This document shows, piece after piece, positions 1 through 10,000 of a stretch of 10,000 bases of DNA. The notes beneath the pieces were generated by a model. That model had not been told where the DNA came from. It saw only the letters and a program-made list of their open reading frames with translations, and ran no database searches. The DNA is taken from positions 1-10,000 of the forward strand of contig JAIWNK010000137.1 in NCBI GenBank assembly GCA_020216845.1. Reading direction: 5' to 3'. The translations under genes were made by a program, and so were the position numbers. The DNA comes from Anaerolinea sp. (GTDB lineage: Bacteria > Chloroflexota > Anaerolineae > Anaerolineales > Anaerolineaceae). Positions within the stretch are counted from its first letter, which is position 1. Each line of letters starts with the position of its first letter.

Positions 1-791
1 ACCTCATTCCAAGCCTCATCGCCCTGCGCGATCAATTGCAGCAGCAACACCAATTCGTCACACCGGTGCGCATTGGCGCCGCCGGTGGCATTGGCAGCCC
101 AGCCGCGGCATTGGCCGCCTTCAGCCTGGGGGCCGCCTATGTTGTCACCGGTTCGATTAACCAGGCCTGCATCGAATCAGGCGCATCGGAACACACCCGC
201 AAGCTGCTCTCGCAGGTGGAAATGACCGACGTAACCATGGCGCCCGCTGCTGATATGTTTGAAATGGGCGTCAAGGTACAGGTGCTCAAACGCGGCACCA
301 TGTTTGCCATGCGTGCCGGTCGGCTATATGAACTCTACACCCGCTACAACTCGATTGAAGAGCTCCCCGCCGAAGAGCGCGAAAAGCTGGAACGCACCAT
401 CTTCCGCCGCAACCTGGACGAGGTGTGGGAAGATACAGCGCGCTTCTTCCAGCAACGCGACCCGCGTCAAATTGAGCGCGCCCTAAAAGACCCGCACCAA
501 AAAATGGCCCTCATCTTCCGCTGGTATTTGGGGCTGTCTTCGCGCTGGTCCAATCAGGGCGAAGTCGGGCGCGAAATGGATTACCAAATCTGGTGCGGGC
601 CCAGCATGGGCGCCTTCAACGATTGGGTACGCGGTAGCTACCTGGAAGCCATTGAAAACCGGCGCGTGGCCGATGTGGCGCAGCAGTTAATGCGAGGAAC
701 GGCATATCTACAGCGGATCGAAATACTCAAAAGCCAGGGCATTCCACTTCCTGCATCCCTGCGTGTCTTTCCCATCCGTCCCTTGCACTAA
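1..791 (+). CDS. pfaD: PfaD-family trans-acting enoyl reductase (C-terminal part, 5' end outside window)
   Basis: The frame is open from the first complete codon (position 3) to TAA at 789-791, giving about 262 residues, so the start lies left of the window; a TTG at 36 is not a credible start because homologous-looking sequence continues upstream of it. The visible part has the glycine-rich FMN-phosphate-binding region of the nitronate monooxygenase/2-nitropropane dioxygenase-like TIM barrel (GAAGGIGSP at 75-101, VTGSINQ at 144-164). It then has the C-terminal extension typical of PfaD: DVTMAPAADMFEMGVKVQVL, RWYLGLSSRW, DYQIWCGPSMGAFNDWVRG. In PUFA synthases PfaD is a flavin enoyl reductase acting in trans on ACP-bound enoyl chains. 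That fits here because the neighbouring megasynthase has KR and DH but no ER. It is convergent to the synthase/PPTase unit and overlaps the PPTase stop by 4 bp. The family call is firm; the exact substrate is unknown. Confidence 0.93.
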   Translation, partial: LIPSLIALRDQLQQQHQFVTPVRIGAAGGIGSPAAALAAFSLGAAYVVTGSINQACIESGASEHTRKLLSQVEMTDVTMAPAADMFEMGVKVQVLKRGTMFAMRAGRLYELYTRYNSIEELPAEEREKLERTIFRRNLDEVWEDTARFFQQRDPRQIERALKDPHQKMALIFRWYLGLSSRWSNQGEVGREMDYQIWCGPSMGAFNDWVRGSYLEAIENRRVADVAQQLMRGTAYLQRIEILKSQGIPLPASLRVFPIRPLH

Positions 792-1492
792 TCAGCAATC
801 CAACGCCGCCAATGGATCTCTTGCAGCGCCGCCCCACACCAGGCGGCGCTGAAGATTTTTTGCCCTTCGCAGCGCATCCATGCCAACCAAACCTGTTCAT
901 CTTGCAAGGGGCCACGCACAGGCAAGCGCGTCCAGTCTCCACCTTCCAGTGTTGGCAACGCCAAAACCTCAACCGCGCGCGTATCCAGGCGCAAACCAGT
1001 TTGCAGGGCTTTCAACATTGCTTCTTTCACACTCCACAAACAACTCAAGGCCACATCTTTTTGTTCAGCCTCCGCAACCAAATGCTGCTCAGCCGGTGTG
1101 AAATAATCAGCTGCAAAGGCCGCACTATGAGCTTCGACGCGCTCTAAATCCACGCCCAAGTGCCCACTGCTTGCTTGCGTCCAGGCGACCAGCGCCCCAC
1201 CATCTCGATGACTGATTGAAAGGCAGCCAGGCAATCGCTCCCCCGCCAACCTTACCTGCGGCACACCAACAGGAGAGTTTTCAATCGAGAGGGCGGACAA
1301 TGGCAAATTCGCCATCTGTGGCAAAACGCGCCGCAACAGCTGTTTTGCTGCCCAGCGTCCTAACAGCCACTCTGCCCGCCGCCGCTCAAAGCGCAGTTGA
1401 GCGAGATGTGCCCGCTCCACATCCGAAAGGCAGTTGCTGTCGAGGCTGGCCAGGCCAGCCTCGACAAACATCCACTCAAACCAAACCGGCAT
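788..1492 (-). CDS. Sfp-type 4'-phosphopantetheinyl transferase
   Basis: A protein of 234 aa that transfers the phosphopantetheine arm of CoA to carrier proteins, presumably the two ACPs of the adjacent synthase. Visible family motifs are RRRAEWLLGRWAAK (residues 37-50), SISHRDGG (92-99, the CoA/phosphate loop with His95), the Mg-binding GVDLE (113-117, Asp115 and Glu117) and WSVKEAMLKAL (153-163, Lys156 and Glu157). The length is normal for the Sfp/EntD/Gsp group. I chose ATG at 1492-1490 because it lies one base after the synthase stop codon (TGA-C-ATG) and directly precedes recognisable N-terminal sequence. The longer frame to 1606 would overlap the synthase by more than 100 bases with unrelated sequence. 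There is no strong Shine-Dalgarno site in front of it, which suggests translation coupled to the synthase. The stop TAG (790-788) overlaps the convergent pfaD stop. Confidence 0.93.
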   Translation of the reverse strand: MPVWFEWMFVEAGLASLDSNCLSDVERAHLAQLRFERRRAEWLLGRWAAKQLLRRVLPQMANLPLSALSIENSPVGVPQVRLAGERLPGCLSISHRDGGALVAWTQASSGHLGVDLERVEAHSAAFAADYFTPAEQHLVAEAEQKDVALSCLWSVKEAMLKALQTGLRLDTRAVEVLALPTLEGGDWTRLPVRGPLQDEQVWLAWMRCEGQKIFSAAWCGAALQEIHWRRWIAD

Positions 1493-1493
1493 G

Positions 1494-4400
1494 TCAATTC
1501 GCTGAAACCAGCGGTTGCAACAAACTACGCAAAGCCGGGTCAATTGCCTCCGGCAGCTCTGCTGTGCGATAATCGCACAATTCCAGGTACACCTGCCCGC
1601 CTTCATCTAGCACACGCGCATCGAAGAACAAACGGCCTTGTGCATCGTGACGAGGATACACTTCTGCATAGACAGGGGTGCCTTTTGCCGCACGCACCGG
1701 GTACAATGACAACCGACCGATCGCACTTGGCAAAGCCAAAACACCGGTTGCCCCCGCCTGCCACAATCCAGCGGTCTGCAAACACAGCTCCAGCAATAGC
1801 GGGTTGGTCAGCAAATTGGTTTCATCCGTCAGTGGCGGCAAAGCCGGGTTCAAACGCCCCAACAACCCCTCGCCACTGCGCTGCACCGCCTCCAGCACCT
1901 GAAACGCCGGCCCGTGGAAGTACAACCGATAAACTTGTTCAGACCCCAAGGTATAGTCCCCATTCCAGTGCGGCGCATGCGCCAATTGCAATGGCTCTGA
2001 TGCATCCAATGCCAGATGAACCTTGCCGCTGAAATGGGTTTGCACCTCCGCCTGACCCTGCCAACGCGACTGTGTCGATTCAAGCGTCACGTAAGCCGTC
2101 AACCCTTCTGCCTCAGCGCGAATTTGCGCCTTCCAGGTGATGCGGCGCGCCTCGTTGCGATAGAACTTAAGCGGCGCCAGGAATTGGATATCTTCCAGGC
2201 CGACAACCTGCAACTGCTTCCCCGAGCTCCCCAATGCAGAGGCAATGTGTTGCGCTGCAACTGAAAAACCTTCAATTCCCATCACGCCCGGCAAAAGCGG
2301 TGTGCCATTCATGGCATGATCTTTCAAGAAAGCCTGTCCATTGGGGTCAAGCTCAGCTTCCAGCCAGATGAATTGCTCGGCATCATAATGCGTCAGCCGA
2401 CTGAACATGATATGCTTAGGGTTGCCTTCTGTCAGGGCACGGTTGGCCTTCTCCAGGTCTAACCCGCCCTCCAGCTTGCGGCCCGCTTCTTCCAGCAGCC
2501 CCAACGCCCCGGCCAACACAACCTCTCCGCTTTGTACACCGTGCACCAATTCTTGATAGACCAGGGGCGCAGCCTCCTGCGGAGAAAGTAATTCCACCCC
2601 CGCGCGCTGCATCAGCTTGGGCAGCGAGCCGCGACTCGCCATGCCAACTTCGCCCCAGGCGCCCCAATCCAGCGTCACAACTTTCATGTTCGGGGCAGTG
2701 TTGCGGAAATGCAACGCCATGCGGGCCAGCAAATCATTGGCGGCGCTATAATCCGTCTGACCAGCATTGCCAAACCGCCCAGCAACCGAGCCAAACAAGA
2801 CCATTGCCCGCGGCATAGAAGATGCCGCTCTGAGCGCCTTATAGAGATTGAACAGACCAGTCGCCTTGATGGCCAGGGTCGCCACAAACTCTTCCAAAGG
2901 CTTCGATTCAATCTTGCGACTGCGCTCAACACCCGCAGCATGAAGCAAGACATCCACCCGCCCTTCAGCAGCCACAATCTCCGTCACCACCTTACGGACA
3001 GACTCAGCTTGCTGCACATCGCACACGCGGTAAACAGCTCGCCCGCCCAACTGCTCAATTTCCTTCACCAAGTCCAACACAGCTGCAGCTCGTTCTAGCC
3101 CAGCCAGTGCCTGTTCGACCTGCACCGGCGTTGGCTTGCCCATCCGCTCAATCAAAGCTGTGCGCAATCCATTGCGATCGCGTCGCAGCCATTCCACATC
3201 TTCAAGATCCTCTGGCAAAGCGGTGCGCCCCAACAGGTAGAAACACCCTTGCGTACGCCGCGCCAGGTCGCGCAGAATGGGCACCGTGATGCCGCCCGAA
3301 CCGCCACTGACAAGGAAGACCGGCTTGTCTCCCAAGTCAAACAGCTCTTGTGACAAGGCCTGTTCCAGGGTTGCCACACCAAAGCGCTGCTCACCGCGCC
3401 AGCCGACTTCCACTGCCCCGGCATCGTTCAGCGTCTCTTCCAACAAACGGGCAGCTATTTGCGCGTCGGGCAAATCCTCGCCAAAATCCACCACCTTGAC
3501 GAAACAGCCAGGGCGCTCACGTCCCAACGCCTTGACCAGCCCCGAAACAACCCCACCCAGCGCGTCGGTCGCCCCTTCTGCCCCATAACCATGCAGCCCA
3601 CCCAGGCGGGTTGCCGCAACCACAAAGCGCAGCTGCGGAAATGCACGCGACAAATGATAGAGCGGCAGCGTGCGCTGCTCCAGCGCAGCTTGCCAGGCAG
3701 CATCATCCATCTCCGCCCAATTGGGTTCAGCTTTGAGTGCCGTCAGGTCATACACACCATGCGGCGGCGTAAGGGATGGCTGCTCCAAATGGTGCCCAAC
3801 CTGCTCCGGTGACAGCAACGTCACCTTGACGGAACGGGCGCGCAGGCGACGCGCCAGCGAAGCCGCCACCTTGCCCTGATCCGAGATGATCCATACCACC
3901 GTCTCGGCGTCCAACACCACATCCGTTGGCAAATACAAATCCAACCGTCCGCGCAACACCGGCACAGGCACACGCCGCCGCACAGTACGATGCGCTTGCG
4001 CTTTCTGCTCAGGGGCATGCTGTTCTTCAGCCGTCGGCTTCGGTTGCTCAGCTGCCTTCGCAAGCATTTCTTCAACAAAATCCACCACCCGCGCCAACGT
4101 GTTGTAATCCGCAAGGCGCAAATCCTCGCGACGCGGAATACCATAATAGGTGCGCACTTCAGCAAACATCTCCGCCTGCTTGACAGTATCAATGCCCAGG
4201 TCGGCTTCCAGATCCAGCCCCATATCCAACATCTCTGGCGGATAACCGGTTTTTTGGCTGACCACCGCCAACACCTTCTGGCAAATCGCATCCCGGTCCA
4301 CCGCACCCTGAGCAGCTACGGGCGAGGCAGCTTCTTGCACCGTCGCAGCTGCAGTAGGTTCTTCCACGGCCACAGCAGCCATCGCAAACGCCGCAGGCGC

Positions 4401-7400
4401 TTGTGCCGCCACAACCGGGGTGGGCTCTTGCACCGTCACAGCCGGAACAAACGTTTCGGCAACAGCTTCCGCCGGCTGATCCACCTGAGCAAGGTTGCCA
4501 AGTCCATCCTGAACGAACGCCATCACCTTGCGCAATGTGTTGTAATCGGCAAGGCGCAAGTCTTCACGGCGAGGGATATTGTAGTGCTGCCGAATGGTTG
4601 CGAACAACTCAGCTTGTTTGACCGTATCAATGCCCAAATCCGCTTCCAAATCCAAATCCGGGTCAAGCATATCCGCCGCATAGCCGGTCTTTTCACTGAC
4701 CTGTGCCAGCACAAACTGACGGATTTCCTCGAATGTTGCACTTGTTGAAGTCGTTTGTTCAACGCTTGCAGCAGGGGCAACCTGCTCAGGCTCATCCTGA
4801 GGAACAGGGGCAAACCAACATGGCCCTTGCCCGAACTGCCAGGTACTGCGCGCCGGCGTTCGAACCGGCGGGCCATCATGGCGCACGCGCAAGGTATGCT
4901 GCACTACCTCCAGGGTTGCCTGCTCATAGCCAGACACATCCGCCAGCCAGCGTTGATACACCTCCGGCACAACGCGTTGCGGCTGCCCCGGAATGGCACG
5001 CAGCAACAACATGGCAATCTGCGAGCCAAAGCCAGCGCCCAAACGCAATGCATAGCGCAGCGCCGCCGGTCCGCCGCGCGAAAGATTCAAATTGCCCAGC
5101 TCTGGATCCGGCTCAAACGCATCGTCATAGTGTGCAATCGGCGGCACGCGCCCCAACTGCAACGCCTTGACGGCCAACACGTCCTCAATGCCAACCGCCA
5201 TAGCATGGCCCGTAAATCCCTTGGTATTGGCAACAATGATCTCATGGGCATGTTCACCAAATGTATGTCGCAAAGCATGAATTTCTGCTGCGGCAGAGCC
5301 GCCGCGCGCTGGCGTATAGGTCTCATGCGAGATAAACACACCCTTGGCAGCCACCTGCTCAGGTCGCACGCCAAACCGCGCCTCAGCTTGTTGCAGCAAT
5401 CGTTCCATCACCTCGCTGACATGCTGAACATCCAATCGGGTGGCATGAAAAGCGCTGTTAGCAATCTGACTGGCCAGGATCTCGCAAATGCCGGTCATGC
5501 CGCGTTCACGCAAAGCATCCTGCGCCTCTACCACCAAAGCAGCCGCCCCCATGCCCATCACCATTCCATTGCGACGACGGTCAAACGGCAAAACCGCCTT
5601 ACGTAGCTCCGCCTCGGTTGTCGTTGCGCCTGAAGCCAACAGACCTCCGCCCACCCACGGGGCAAGCGGGCCACTGTTGACATCATCCGCGGCGATAACA
5701 ACCACGCGACGGCAGCGGCCAGAGCGCACCCAATCTTCGGCCAACGCAATCGCCTGCGTTGTTGTTGCACAAGCGGCATTCACCGCTGTGTTGGGCCCAC
5801 GCGCGCCAATCTGCTCAGCAAACTGTGCATGGCCCATGGATAGAATCCGGAAGACAAAGCGTCGGTCAAGGTGATAATCCATCTCTGCCCGCTGCGCCTG
5901 CAAAACCTCAAGGCGCGCCCGCAAAGCCGGATGCGCTGCCTCCGGTAGCGTGCTCAAAAGCGCTTGCAGTTCAGCAATCTGCGCCTCCACCTGCCGAAAA
6001 GCATAATAGCGATCCGCCTCCTCTGCCATCCGGTTCAAGCCCGGGAAAGCGGAAGCAAAAATCACGCCCGTCTCATCGGCCAACGCCTCGGGCAACTTCC
6101 ACCGATCGGGCAATAACGTGCCGCGGCTTGTCTGCCGATAAGCCATCACCAACGGAATGCCTGCATCACGCAGGGCATCAATCCCGGCTGCCATGGCCAA
6201 CAAGGTCGTAATATCGCAGGCGTCCATGCGCTCCTCAGGGAAGCCAAATTCTTGCCCCGGGTCAAAGTAACCGCGCTGACCAGCAAGCTGAATCGTCTGA
6301 TCCAATCCTTCAATCGGCAACCATTGTGCACCTGCTTCGCTCTTCTCCAGGCGGGTAATGCGCCGGTCTAAAATTGCCTGACGGCTTGCTTCTGGCAAAG
6401 GCTCAATGAGCATCTCGCCATTCAACAACCGTTCAATGTTATCGTCCGAAAACACCTGCCGCTCTCGTCCCGGAAGGCCCAAAGCCGCACCGCTGATCAC
6501 CACCGAACCGCGAACGCCCTGCCCCATCGGGGCAACCGGCACAGGTTGTGCCACCGTTGCAGCTTCAACTGCCGTCGTCGTTGGCTTAGCCTGAACCGTT
6601 CCTGCAGGCGCAGAAACTTCAACCGGAAGAGAATCACCGCCTTGGGGCATTGCTTGTCGCCCAACCCCCGCGGCCAACAAGCCGCACAAAGCCTCGTTGA
6701 AGCTTGCCACCGCGCCCTTGCGGGGATGATTGGTCGCCAACAAACGCACCTCGCGCCCCTTGAGAATATCTGTTGCCAGCGCGTTCAACACCCGCTTGGG
6801 GCCAATCTCAACGAACACGCGTGCCCCCAAAGCATACATCGTCTCAATGCCTTTGACAAATTGCACCGGCGAGGCTACCTGCTGCCCAAGCAATTCTAAC
6901 ATTGCCATCCGCTCCGAAGGGTACACCTCCCCCGTCACATTGGCAATCACCGGAATGCGCGGCTGGGTAAGGCTCATCCGCCCAATCACCTGCTTGAGCG
7001 GCTCAGAAGCAGAAGCCACAATTTGAGTGTGAAACGCGTGCGAAACGGGAATCTGCGTTGCCTGATACCCTGCCGCCTCAAAAGCCTGCAAAGCCGCCCG
7101 CAACCCCGGCGTGCTGCCACCCACCACACACTGCAATGGGCTATTTACATTGGCAATCACCACATATTCCGGAATGGATTGCAGAATCCGTTCTACTTCT
7201 GCAAGGGGCGCCGAAACAGCCACCATCCCGCCAGGGTCACCAACCGAAACCTTCTTCATCTCCTGAGCGCGGGCGCTCACAATTTCCAATGCCTCATGGA
7301 ATTGCAATACACCGGCTGCCACAAGCGCAGCATATTCGCCCAGGCTGTGACCAATGACCATATCGGGCCGATATCCATACTTTTCCATCAAACGCAAAAG

Positions 7401-9437
7401 CGCCACATTGGCCGTCAGCATTGCCGGTTGGGTAATCGTCGTATCACGCAAAGCCGCCTCAGCTGCCTTCAATGCCTCGGGATCGCCATCCACATAAATA
7501 TAGCTTGTCAGCGAACGGCCAAAAATAGGCGTCATGATTTCATCAGCTTCGCGAAAAGTCTCAGCCACCAATGGCTCCGCTTCACACAGGTCCTTGAGCA
7601 TATTGACATACTGTGAGCCCTGCCCAGGGAAGAGGAAAGCCAACTTGCCCGGCGTGCCACTACCGCGCTGAATGCCCTGTGCCGTCAACGCCGGCCAGGC
7701 AACTTCATTGCCGCTCTCCAAGGCGCGCAGCGCCTTTTCTGCCCGGGCAATCAATTCTTTGCCGTCCTCGAAATCAATAGCCAAGCGCTGCGGCTGAGCG
7801 AGCGCCTCAGCACTCGGCAACATACGTTCGGGCAATTGCCCCTGACGGGCCAACTGCAACGCTGCCGATAACGCATCTTTCAATTCCGCCACCGTGGATG
7901 CACCAAGGAACAACAACCCATTCAAAGGCCTTTGCGCCATCTGTTCCTGCACTTGCGCCGGTTGCGTCTCACGCGCCGGCAACGACACCCCCGGGAAAGA
8001 AGCCTGCGGCTGCGTCAGCAACCCCGGCACCCATTCTTCCAACACGACATGAAAATTCGTCCCGCCAAAGCCAAAGGCGCTCACACCGGCCCGGCGAATC
8101 TCGCCCGGTGCGTTTTGCCAGGGTTGCGCCTCGGTATTGACATAAAACGGTAAATGCTCAAAATCAATTTGTGGGTTCGGCTTATGAAAATTAGCCGAAG
8201 GCGGCAAAGTCCGCTCGGCCAATGCATAGACCGCCTTCAACAGTCCCGCAGCACCCGCCGCACTTTTCAGGTGACCGATGTTGGATTTGACAGACCCCAT
8301 CGCCACGCTATGAACCGGCAGCCCCAGCCCACCGAACACAGCTTGCAGGCTTGCAACTTCGGTCACATCACCAACTCGCGTCGAAGTACCGTGCGCCTCA
8401 ATCAACCCAACCGAAGCAGGCGACACAGCCGCGTTCTTCCAGGCACGCTCCACCGCGCGCTGTTGCCCGGCCGGGTTGGGTGCCGTGATGCCCTTGCCTT
8501 TGCCATCACTACTGCTGCCAATGCCACGAATGACCGCATAAATACGGTCGCCATCCCGTTCCGCATCCACAAGGCGCTTAAGCAAAAAGATTGCCGCACC
8601 TTCACCCATCACAAAACCGTTTGCGCCTTCTGCAAAAGGACGCGAACCATCCGGGCTGAGCGCGCCAATCTTGCTAAACTTGACAAAGCCCTCCACGCTC
8701 ATGTTGCGGTCCACGCCACCGGTCAAGACCGCATCAAACGCGTGCGTCACAAGCCCGTCTACCGCCGCCTGCAAAGCCGCCAGGCTAGAAGCACAAGCCG
8801 CATCGGTAACAAAATTCGGCCCATAAAAATTGAACACATTTGCAATCCGCCCAGCAATAACATTGCCCAACTCCCCCGGCATGGTATCTTCCGTAATGGG
8901 GGGAATGTCGCGAGCAAATTGTGCCTGCATCTGTTGCTGCAAAGCCTGTTGCACCGACGCGGGCAAACTGCGAAACACATCCAAATTGCCCAACGTATCC
9001 AAAAAGTCCGGCAAGTGAATGCGCAAACTGGTGCGGTAATGATTTTCGCCACCCAAGGCATTGCCCAAAATCACCGCCACCCGACTCGGGTCCAAACTGC
9101 GCTGCGGATACCCATAATCCAGCAACGCCTGACGGGCGGCAGCAATGCCCCATTGCTGACTTTCATCCATCACCGCCAACACACTCGGCGGAATGGGGAT
9201 GCCCCATTGCAACGGGGTAAACTCAAAGTCCTGTACCCAGGCGCCAATTTTAGAATACGTCTTATCCGGCACCTTAGGGTCTGGATCGTAATACAAGTCA
9301 CTGCGCCAGCGCTGCGGGGGAACTTCGCGAATAGAATAACGAGCAGCAAGGACGTTCTCCCAGAAACGCCGGGCATTGGGAGCATCGGGCAAAATTGCCC
9401 CGAGGCCAACAATTGCAACCGCTTTGGGGTCGTACAT
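1494..9437 (-). CDS. Giant iterative lipid/polyketide synthase, KS-AT-KS'-ACP-ACP-KR-DH
   Basis: A protein of 2647 aa (residues counted from the ATG at 9437). KS1 is about 4-467: Cys215 in DAACASS, His349 in EAHGTST, His389 in KSNIGH. AT is about 598-897: FPGQGSQ at 603, Ser698 in GHSLGEY, and SHAFH at 799-803, which in this family points to malonyl-CoA. A second, divergent KS spans about 977-1482: Cys1223 in NAACATT, His1371 in SHETYTP, His1411 in NTKGFTGH. Two ACPs follow (about 1567-1647 and 1714-1794), both with LGIDTVKQAE. KR is about 1835-2312, with a structural half and then GGSGGI at 2045-2050, Ser2217, Tyr2230 and Asn2234. A double-hotdog DH closes the protein (about 2352-2647): His2374 in HxxxGxxxxP, HGPAF at 2508, Glu2550 in ExxxQ. 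No ER, methyltransferase or thioesterase is visible; ER is probably supplied by PfaD. The start at Met9 of the longest frame is preferred because AGGAGAA lies 7 bases before it. The layout resembles fused PfaA/PfaC-like secondary-lipid synthases; the product is unknown. Confidence 0.92.
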   Translation of the reverse strand: MYDPKAVAIVGLGAILPDAPNARRFWENVLAARYSIREVPPQRWRSDLYYDPDPKVPDKTYSKIGAWVQDFEFTPLQWGIPIPPSVLAVMDESQQWGIAAARQALLDYGYPQRSLDPSRVAVILGNALGGENHYRTSLRIHLPDFLDTLGNLDVFRSLPASVQQALQQQMQAQFARDIPPITEDTMPGELGNVIAGRIANVFNFYGPNFVTDAACASSLAALQAAVDGLVTHAFDAVLTGGVDRNMSVEGFVKFSKIGALSPDGSRPFAEGANGFVMGEGAAIFLLKRLVDAERDGDRIYAVIRGIGSSSDGKGKGITAPNPAGQQRAVERAWKNAAVSPASVGLIEAHGTSTRVGDVTEVASLQAVFGGLGLPVHSVAMGSVKSNIGHLKSAAGAAGLLKAVYALAERTLPPSANFHKPNPQIDFEHLPFYVNTEAQPWQNAPGEIRRAGVSAFGFGGTNFHVVLEEWVPGLLTQPQASFPGVSLPARETQPAQVQEQMAQRPLNGLLFLGASTVAELKDALSAALQLARQGQLPERMLPSAEALAQPQRLAIDFEDGKELIARAEKALRALESGNEVAWPALTAQGIQRGSGTPGKLAFLFPGQGSQYVNMLKDLCEAEPLVAETFREADEIMTPIFGRSLTSYIYVDGDPEALKAAEAALRDTTITQPAMLTANVALLRLMEKYGYRPDMVIGHSLGEYAALVAAGVLQFHEALEIVSARAQEMKKVSVGDPGGMVAVSAPLAEVERILQSIPEYVVIANVNSPLQCVVGGSTPGLRAALQAFEAAGYQATQIPVSHAFHTQIVASASEPLKQVIGRMSLTQPRIPVIANVTGEVYPSERMAMLELLGQQVASPVQFVKGIETMYALGARVFVEIGPKRVLNALATDILKGREVRLLATNHPRKGAVASFNEALCGLLAAGVGRQAMPQGGDSLPVEVSAPAGTVQAKPTTTAVEAATVAQPVPVAPMGQGVRGSVVISGAALGLPGRERQVFSDDNIERLLNGEMLIEPLPEASRQAILDRRITRLEKSEAGAQWLPIEGLDQTIQLAGQRGYFDPGQEFGFPEERMDACDITTLLAMAAGIDALRDAGIPLVMAYRQTSRGTLLPDRWKLPEALADETGVIFASAFPGLNRMAEEADRYYAFRQVEAQIAELQALLSTLPEAAHPALRARLEVLQAQRAEMDYHLDRRFVFRILSMGHAQFAEQIGARGPNTAVNAACATTTQAIALAEDWVRSGRCRRVVVIAADDVNSGPLAPWVGGGLLASGATTTEAELRKAVLPFDRRRNGMVMGMGAAALVVEAQDALRERGMTGICEILASQIANSAFHATRLDVQHVSEVMERLLQQAEARFGVRPEQVAAKGVFISHETYTPARGGSAAAEIHALRHTFGEHAHEIIVANTKGFTGHAMAVGIEDVLAVKALQLGRVPPIAHYDDAFEPDPELGNLNLSRGGPAALRYALRLGAGFGSQIAMLLLRAIPGQPQRVVPEVYQRWLADVSGYEQATLEVVQHTLRVRHDGPPVRTPARSTWQFGQGPCWFAPVPQDEPEQVAPAASVEQTTSTSATFEEIRQFVLAQVSEKTGYAADMLDPDLDLEADLGIDTVKQAELFATIRQHYNIPRREDLRLADYNTLRKVMAFVQDGLGNLAQVDQPAEAVAETFVPAVTVQEPTPVVAAQAPAAFAMAAVAVEEPTAAATVQEAASPVAAQGAVDRDAICQKVLAVVSQKTGYPPEMLDMGLDLEADLGIDTVKQAEMFAEVRTYYGIPRREDLRLADYNTLARVVDFVEEMLAKAAEQPKPTAEEQHAPEQKAQAHRTVRRRVPVPVLRGRLDLYLPTDVVLDAETVVWIISDQGKVAASLARRLRARSVKVTLLSPEQVGHHLEQPSLTPPHGVYDLTALKAEPNWAEMDDAAWQAALEQRTLPLYHLSRAFPQLRFVVAATRLGGLHGYGAEGATDALGGVVSGLVKALGRERPGCFVKVVDFGEDLPDAQIAARLLEETLNDAGAVEVGWRGEQRFGVATLEQALSQELFDLGDKPVFLVSGGSGGITVPILRDLARRTQGCFYLLGRTALPEDLEDVEWLRRDRNGLRTALIERMGKPTPVQVEQALAGLERAAAVLDLVKEIEQLGGRAVYRVCDVQQAESVRKVVTEIVAAEGRVDVLLHAAGVERSRKIESKPLEEFVATLAIKATGLFNLYKALRAASSMPRAMVLFGSVAGRFGNAGQTDYSAANDLLARMALHFRNTAPNMKVVTLDWGAWGEVGMASRGSLPKLMQRAGVELLSPQEAAPLVYQELVHGVQSGEVVLAGALGLLEEAGRKLEGGLDLEKANRALTEGNPKHIMFSRLTHYDAEQFIWLEAELDPNGQAFLKDHAMNGTPLLPGVMGIEGFSVAAQHIASALGSSGKQLQVVGLEDIQFLAPLKFYRNEARRITWKAQIRAEAEGLTAYVTLESTQSRWQGQAEVQTHFSGKVHLALDASEPLQLAHAPHWNGDYTLGSEQVYRLYFHGPAFQVLEAVQRSGEGLLGRLNPALPPLTDETNLLTNPLLLELCLQTAGLWQAGATGVLALPSAIGRLSLYPVRAAKGTPVYAEVYPRHDAQGRLFFDARVLDEGGQVYLELCDYRTAELPEAIDPALRSLLQPLVSAN
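4056..4739 (-). repeat. Tandem acyl-carrier-protein domains with Ala/Pro/Val-rich linker
   Basis: Two ACP copies lie inside the synthase at 4497-4739 (first) and 4056-4298 (second). By eye, a 61-residue core beginning at KTGY and ending at the last helix differs at only 16 positions, including the shared stretches LDLEADLGIDTVKQAE and IPRREDLRLADYNTL. The DNA is also visibly similar, which suggests duplication or homogenisation. The copies are joined by a flexible linker (about 4299-4496) rich in Ala, Val, Pro and Glu. Tandem ACPs are a hallmark of PUFA-type synthases, where copy number affects yield. Both copies encode Thr (ACG at 4625-4623, ACT at 4187-4185) where the Ser that carries phosphopantetheine normally sits. 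Confidence 0.88.
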
Positions 9438-9444
9438 AGTTGTC

Positions 9445-9451
9445 TTCTCCT
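9445..9451 (-). promoter_or_regulatory. Ribosome binding site deciding the synthase start
   Basis: The minus strand reads AGGAGAA followed by 7 bases and ATG (9437-9435). This near-consensus Shine-Dalgarno site lies inside the reading frame of the longer candidate starting at 9461, which itself has no purine-rich site upstream. The start at 9437 is therefore favoured; it also begins MYDPKAVAIVGLG, close to the usual KS N-terminus. Confidence 0.8.
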
Positions 9452-9503
9452 GAACAATCATGGCTCAGGCAAAAACTGCCTGGCAACGGCTTAAAGCAAC
9501 ACG

Positions 9504-9536
9504 AAAAACAGCGCGCCTCATGACACCATGAGCGCG
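9504..9536 (-). terminator. Probable intrinsic terminator or leader attenuator upstream of the synthase
   Basis: On the minus strand a stem is formed by 9536-9527 and 9522-9512, with a GTGT loop and one bulged base. The inner six pairs are CATGAG/CTCATG and four further G-C pairs lie below the bulge. It is followed three bases later by TTTTT (9508-9504). The shape fits a rho-independent terminator for transcripts arriving from the gene ending at 9641. Because it lies only about 65 bases before the synthase start, it could instead regulate the synthase as an attenuator if the promoter is further upstream. Confidence 0.5.
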
Positions 9537-9586
9537 GATACAGTTGTTTCGGTTGTCTTGCCGCAAAACTCTATTCGTAATAACAC

Positions 9587-9615
9587 ACTGCGGGCGTAGA
9601 AGTTACGCCCGCAGT
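9587..9615 (-). terminator. Strong hairpin after the right-edge gene, possible terminator
   Basis: This is a perfect 12-bp inverted repeat (ACTGCGGGCGTA / TACGCCCGCAGT) with a 5-base loop, GC-rich and starting 25 bases after the stop of the minus-strand gene at 9641. On the minus strand it is followed by GTGTTATTACG, which is T-containing but lacks a clean T-run, so it may terminate poorly, protect an RNA 3' end, or act together with the second hairpin at 9504-9536. Confidence 0.5.
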
Positions 9616-9640
9616 CGGATGAAAAACGACAAACGGTAAT

Positions 9641-10000
9641 TCAACGGCCTGGAATAGCAGCCTCAAGCTCCATCAGGCTTGTTTTCAACTGCGGCACCTG
9701 ACCGCGCGCGGCCTGAACCGTCAAAGCCTGAATACTGGCTTGCAGCCCGGCAAGCTGCGGCCCACCGTGTGCGGCAAGGCTGGCATTTGCATTAGCCGCC
9801 AACTGTGCCAGCGTGTTTAATTCTGCGGGCGAAATTTTTTGATCGGTCAACGCAACTTTCATCTCCTGAACATAGCTGCGCACGCTTGCCAAAGCTTCCA
9901 CTCGATTCGAAGCAACCGCGTTCGGCTGCACAGAAAGCACCTGCTTCTCACGCATCTGAAGTTGTTCTTGAACGGCAGACAGCCACCCTTGTGACTTGAC
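9641..10000 (-). CDS. Hypothetical Ala/Gln/Leu-rich helical protein (C-terminal part, 5' end probably outside window)
   Basis: The frame stops at TGA (9643-9641) and is open without interruption to the right edge, so at least 119 codons are visible. An ATG at 9955 would give 104 aa, but it lacks a good ribosome binding site and similar helix-prone sequence (SAVQEQLQ) continues upstream. The gene therefore probably starts outside the window. The visible part is dominated by Ala, Leu, Gln and Glu with few aromatic residues, no membrane span and no recognisable catalytic motif. It looks like two or three amphipathic helices broken by Gly/Pro (ISPAELN, AAHGGPQ), ending AAIPGR. I do not recognise the family. 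It lies upstream of the synthase on the same strand but is separated from it by two hairpins, so a functional link is not shown. Confidence 0.55.
   Translation of the reverse strand, partial: VKSQGWLSAVQEQLQMREKQVLSVQPNAVASNRVEALASVRSYVQEMKVALTDQKISPAELNTLAQLAANANASLAAHGGPQLAGLQASIQALTVQAARGQVPQLKTSLMELEAAIPGR

Follow-up and report, generated by a model that had tools for sequence, protein, structure and literature searches.

Attachment of the phosphopantetheine arm to serine is treated as a defining feature of carrier proteins, and both annotation and engineering take it for granted. Can threonine take the place of this serine in a natural carrier? The question is raised by a stretch of 10,000 nucleotides from Anaerolinea sp. 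(contig JAIWNK010000137.1, positions 1 to 10,000; hereafter the window). Its main open frame (1494..9461, reverse strand) encodes a type I synthase of 2655 amino acids with the order KS-AT-KS'-ACP-ACP-KR-DH, in which the Pfam KS, AT, PP-binding, KR and PS-DH profiles all match above cut-off. It is followed directly by the gene of an Sfp-type phosphopantetheinyl transferase (PPTase). The motif DLEADLGIDTVKQAE is present in both acyl carrier protein (ACP) domains, and threonine occupies the position of the phosphopantetheine-bearing serine.

Threonine at the attachment position of both carrier domains

ACP1 (4512..4715, reverse strand) matches PF00550 with 42.0 bits against a cut-off of 20.8. 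The search reported this single stretch and did not list ACP2 separately; ACP2 (4077..4277, reverse strand, approximate limits from the alignment with ACP1) was recognised by that alignment and by our own site-masked profile, and its AlphaFold model has a pLDDT of 92.7. The profile match above cut-off and the four-helix fold are those of a carrier domain, and at the N-terminus of helix II, where a carrier has serine, both copies have threonine. An earlier note on this DNA had read the motif with threonine in both ACPs, encoded by ACG and ACT, and translation confirms it: the residues are Thr1613 (ACG, 4623..4625, reverse strand) and Thr1759 (ACT, 4185..4187, reverse strand). The threonine falls at the start of helix II, in the place of serine, when the domains are profile-aligned with ACPs of solved structure, and likewise in the AlphaFold model, where Thr1759 is residue 40 of the construct and the first of helix 40-54.

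The same note had seen no other serine near the motif, and this holds well beyond the window, as no conserved serine was found elsewhere in the ACP domain across 616 motif rows. The hydroxyl residues present in 602 of these rows are just the site threonine and a tyrosine 19 residues upstream, and the nearest upstream column rich in serine lies at -24 (serine in 156 of 616 rows). The remaining 14 rows, in which the site is Asp, Glu, Asn, Ala or Lys, were excluded as pattern matches lacking ACP context.

As contig C1, the window belongs to the metagenome-assembled genome (MAG) G000 (1.83 Mb), and an assembly that is 76% complete might invite the suspicion of a sequencing or assembly artefact. 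This explanation is practically out of the question: it is refuted by the presence of the same threonine in hundreds of other proteins, including the synthase of the cultured Anaerolinea thermolimosa (locus L003), and the window itself uses two different threonine codons, the ground on which a sequencing error had already been excluded.

Conservation among relatives

A protein search with the ACPs as query (best 120 of 4991 taken), which favours threonine by its design, gave threonine in 602 of 602 motif matches in 121 proteins, four of these matches being the window's own (P0001 and P0009). Because of this bias, a second search was based on the KS (best 120 of 8000 taken) and added 108 proteins. 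ACPs were found in 94 of them with the site-masked profile, and of these 264 domains 262 carry threonine, two lysine and none serine. The lysines belong to decaying last copies that have lost much of the motif (residue 2006 of P0168 and residue 1859 of P0177). The other 14 proteins, without an ACP-profile match, are cut short or are distant polyketide synthases (PKSs) that a threonine-based profile may have missed.

Threonine is found in proteins named Chloroflexota, Acidobacteria, Elusimicrobia, Binatia and Saprospiraceae, and further in Thermoanaerobaculia, Korobacteraceae and Chloroploca. Threonine at the site is a family trait, far beyond chance. The guess that it might be a conserved feature of the subfamily has thus been borne out across named bacterial groups as well as marine archaea, and neither a different conserved serine nor a predominance of serine among the homologues was found.

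Copy number varies within the family. Three to six ACPs are present in 118 of the 121 ACP-selected proteins and seven in one; the only two-ACP proteins in this set are the two records of the window's own synthase. In Anaerolinea thermolimosa an extra threonine ACP (L003, 10893-11147) is set well apart from the other three, upstream of them and apparently between AT and KS', and has no counterpart in the window. Three archaeal proteins have low-scoring ACP-like matches in a similar position (12-16 bits, with Ala or Asp, around residues 1042-1098); these were excluded from the serine and threonine counts.

A scan of 301 genomes from the window's phylum with exact codon patterns, which undercounts, detected threonine motifs in nine and serine motifs (DSIK) in nine. 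Excluded were a DSVK match in G054, in a frame unlike an ACP, and matches with neither serine nor threonine; single matches of the latter kind were treated as chance (control matches numbered four in all). Three genomes hold a threonine array and a serine array at different loci. Such cohabitation is what one would expect if threonine insulated the synthase from the housekeeping AcpS and the serine-type carriers of the cell, an idea compatible with threonine as the attachment residue. The window's own MAG fits as well, with a second, short PPTase on contig C88 and one further carrier found, on contig C47, with serine in WDSL. Threonine is, however, also present in archaea where no second PPTase and no serine carrier were found, so insulation cannot be what maintains it there, and we regard it as a rather unlikely explanation.

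Co-occurrence of transferase and synthase in marine archaea

Archaeal relatives were first met in MAGs named 'Euryarchaeota' (L005-L007), and close kin of the archaeal proteins bear the names Poseidoniales, Thalassarchaeaceae and Marine Group II (best 120 of 7432, drawn by KS). We examined 116 genomes drawn evenly from one class, mostly in many contigs. The PPTase was detected in 70 and the carrier in 67 of them; 64 genomes have both, 43 neither, and nine are discordant. Eight of the nine discordant cases are at contig ends. The carrier-only genomes are G312, in which our own profile finds the PPTase, G338, with a PPTase cut at the contig end, and G352, again at a contig end. Where a PPTase alone was detected (six genomes), the frame adjoining it runs off the contig; in G391 the adjoining frame leaves the examined stretch 162 bases short of the contig end. 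Of 14 control genomes, 11 matched PF00550 and 10 matched PF01648. The megaenzyme, the PPTase or both are present in about six in ten of the archaeal genomes drawn, and the remainder have neither.

Of the 70 genomes with a PPTase, 69 show a single one. A hidden serine carrier was considered as its partner and rejected, as a search of ten of the archaeal genomes (eight of them threonine-type) at E values up to 10 returned nothing over the cut-off beyond the synthase; the best other match was partial, with an E of 0.017. Each of the ten has one PPTase, and in the eight threonine-type genomes it adjoins the synthase. In G306, on a contig of 2.06 Mb, three carriers were found, all with threonine. 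The retention of a PPTase where the only detectable carriers have threonine is hard to explain unless the enzyme modifies threonine.

To our knowledge, every described carrier uses serine. The threonine ACPs could accordingly be imagined to remain apo as structural domains, the chains being carried by CoA or by another carrier, and PMC4103896 does describe carriers as using serine. This is quite improbable in view of the eight threonine-type archaeal genomes, which keep one PPTase beside the synthase and yet have no other carrier over the cut-off. Decaying copies lose much of the motif, and the window synthase has the motifs of KS, AT, KR and DH, which also speak against a purely structural role.

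Interchange of serine and threonine

When the letter at the site was read in the 67 carrier-positive archaeal genomes together with G414 (n = 68), 62 had threonine and six serine. The serine-type archaeal synthases share the KQAE motif, reading GIDSIKQAE or, in G399, GVDSVKQAE. They do not form one clade in a tree of the KR-DH part (approximately unbiased (AU) test, p-AU 0.0105), and two changes are required in 200 of 200 bootstrap trees; with the bacterial serine synthases included in the tree, at least three changes between serine and threonine are needed. The grouping had already been seen in an earlier tree when the AU test was run, and locus L129 (G399) sits on a long branch, which weakens this result somewhat.

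Within a synthase the letter does not vary: arrays with at least two copies are internally uniform at 80 of 80 loci, and a third sample of 118 proteins contained 81 with threonine, 26 with serine and none mixed (the other 11, cut short or distant PKSs, had no ACP-profile match). The site is coupled to its neighbour. In the protein sets, threonine is followed by valine 1006 times and by isoleucine once, while serine is followed by isoleucine in 52 of 52 cases, and it looks as if the methyl group gained at the site is offset by the loss of one at the next residue. PMC11744666 reports that the residue following this site is important for compatibility with Sfp.

Could the replacement nevertheless be neutral, with threonine as the attachment site and a PPTase that takes serine and threonine alike? 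Such an explanation would deny only the specialisation. It gains from the alternation of serine and threonine among archaeal synthases that are related and share this gene pair, from the retention in G222 and G260 of a serine array with no PPTase beside it within the stretch examined, and from the PPTase comparison given below. On the other hand, no serine occurs in 868 ACPs matched by the site-masked profile, although one base change would suffice, no mixed array was seen in 80 loci, and the pairing of Thr-Val and Ser-Ile is near-absolute. We consider neutrality a genuine but minority possibility.

In the PPTase itself, columns 187, 198 and 206 (window numbering) show no overlap between five serine-linked and 47 threonine-linked archaeal enzymes, and column 206 is serine in all five of the former and in none of the latter.

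Proposed mechanism and points against it

We consider it likely, on the comparative evidence above, that threonine is the attachment residue and carries the phosphopantetheine arm; that the arm is put on by the synthase's own Sfp-type PPTase would be the simplest reading. The 4'-phosphopantetheine arm would be joined to the side-chain oxygen of threonine in place of serine, after transfer from CoA by the PPTase encoded directly downstream. The arm would then shuttle the chain between KS, AT, KR and DH, and the adjacent PfaD-type reductase would work in trans. We infer the modification of threonine, the role of the neighbouring PPTase and this order of the chemistry. The earlier note had left a choice between modification of threonine by the neighbouring enzyme and chains carried elsewhere; the linkage of PPTase and synthase, together with the interchange of serine and threonine, favours the former.

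Several observations weigh against this reading or parts of it. In spinach ACP-I, replacement of the serine by threonine or cysteine is reported in passing in PMC9310384 to abolish function, which implies that an ordinary ACP does not easily make use of threonine. Among the PPTases, no column divides all seven serine-linked from all 58 threonine-linked enzymes, and a residue diagnostic for the linkage was therefore rejected; with just two or three independent switches and 258 profile positions scanned, the columns named above are a lead only. The sole PPTases of G222 and G260 are a short AcpS-like one of 139 amino acids and the threonine-linked one, so the latter may also serve serine, or the short one may serve the serine array. 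Both copies in L129 read Ser-Val and break the pairing rule. G416 has a second PPTase match, and G373, the sole genome with an extra carrier gene among the matches listed in the search of 116 genomes, has a further carrier in a 2356-amino-acid frame on another contig (L165) that does not match the threonine-family profile.

Weighing these points, we give a probability of roughly 0.65 to the full reading, namely that in a lineage of megaenzymes resembling polyunsaturated fatty acid synthases, spread over bacteria and marine archaea, the arm sits on threonine, the co-encoded PPTase is tuned to threonine, and threonine and serine have repeatedly been switched, usually with compensation between isoleucine and valine. 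If true, this would be the first known case of natural carrier proteins that use a residue other than serine, and a natural threonine carrier with a transferase of its own would change the serine rule. The pair would offer a natural test of residue choice by PPTases and possibly an orthogonal carrier and PPTase for engineering and labelling. The data suggest that ACPs of this kind, which might be annotated as dead, are active, including those of a synthase of marine archaea, organisms whose membrane lipids are not known to be built from fatty acids.

Organisation of the synthase and neighbouring genes

The synthase frame (9461-1494, reverse strand) translates without internal stops. All of its domains are on the reverse strand, and those outside the ACPs were assigned by Pfam match and motif reading unless stated otherwise. 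KS1 (8187..9422) has the cysteine (DAACASS) and both histidine motifs, and the AT (6717..7637) has GHSLGE. KS' (approximately 4782..6374), a second KS-like domain at the position of the chain length factor (CLF), retains a cysteine (NAACATT) and two histidine motifs. They are followed, beyond the ACPs, by the KR (2652..3317; tyrosine motif GQTDYSAAN) and a PKS-type DH (1542..2369; HxxxGxxxxP). The best segment is 65% identical to the Anaerolinea thermolimosa synthase, and the KS is 76% identical to that of Bellilinea caldifistulae, which marks the genome as Anaerolineaceae-like.

The PPTase (788..1606, reverse strand) has the PF01648 profile match, the fold and the catalytic residues of the Sfp type. 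Its true start is probably the ATG at 1492, one base past the synthase stop codon TGA (1496-1494). Elsewhere, the PPTase adjoining the serine-type archaeal synthase of L129 has SIST, with threonine replacing the histidine of SISH, and in L139 (G416) two PPTase-like frames lie on one contig near a threonine synthase. Facing the PPTase gene is the terminal part of a PfaD-type enoyl reductase (3..791, forward strand). This C-terminal fragment covers positions 204-442 of the 444 in TIGR02814 and scores 385.8 bits against a cut-off of 449.25, probably because the gene is cut by the window edge. PfaD was not found in the archaeal loci L006 and L007. A small open frame at 9641-10000 (reverse strand), also cut by the window edge, matches neither a Pfam nor an NCBIfam profile at E 0.001.

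Comparison with known systems

The closest layout is that of the type R secondary lipid synthase clusters (Shulse and Allen 2011, PMC3098273), described there as one pfaA-like gene KS-MAT-CLF-ACP(3-6)-KR with a PPTase gene after it, occurring in Chloroflexi, Acidobacteria and Elusimicrobia, with an unknown product. The window likewise has KS-MAT-CLF-ACP-KR in one gene and a PPTase gene downstream, but differs in three respects: it has two ACPs instead of 3-6, it includes a DH, and its KS' has retained the cysteine. The words 'serine' and 'threonine' are absent from the main text of PMC3098273, so the threonine is not described there. We would call the window synthase type-R-like, not a member. 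It also resembles PfaA in the order KS-AT-ACPn-KR, the tandem ACPs and the PfaD and PPTase partners, with a TIGR02813 (PfaA) score of 953.4 bits that misses the cut-off of 1010.1. The motif ...GYP...DLEADLGID, which we take to be a feature of PfaA tandem ACPs, is seen in the PfaA-like serine loci L024 and L025; where these continue with Ser-Ile-Lys-Arg, the window has Thr-Val-Lys-Gln.

The window PPTase is like Sfp-type (group II) enzymes in fold and in the GxDxE and W..KE...K motifs, its best match being the Sfp-CoA-PCP complex (PDB code 4mrt). It is unlike them in that the only detectable partner in the closely examined threonine archaea is a threonine carrier. A full-text literature search, with most subscription journals outside its coverage, found no threonine carrier described. 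Both partners have ordinary folds, that of a carrier and that of a PPTase; what is new is the replacement of one residue thought to be universal.

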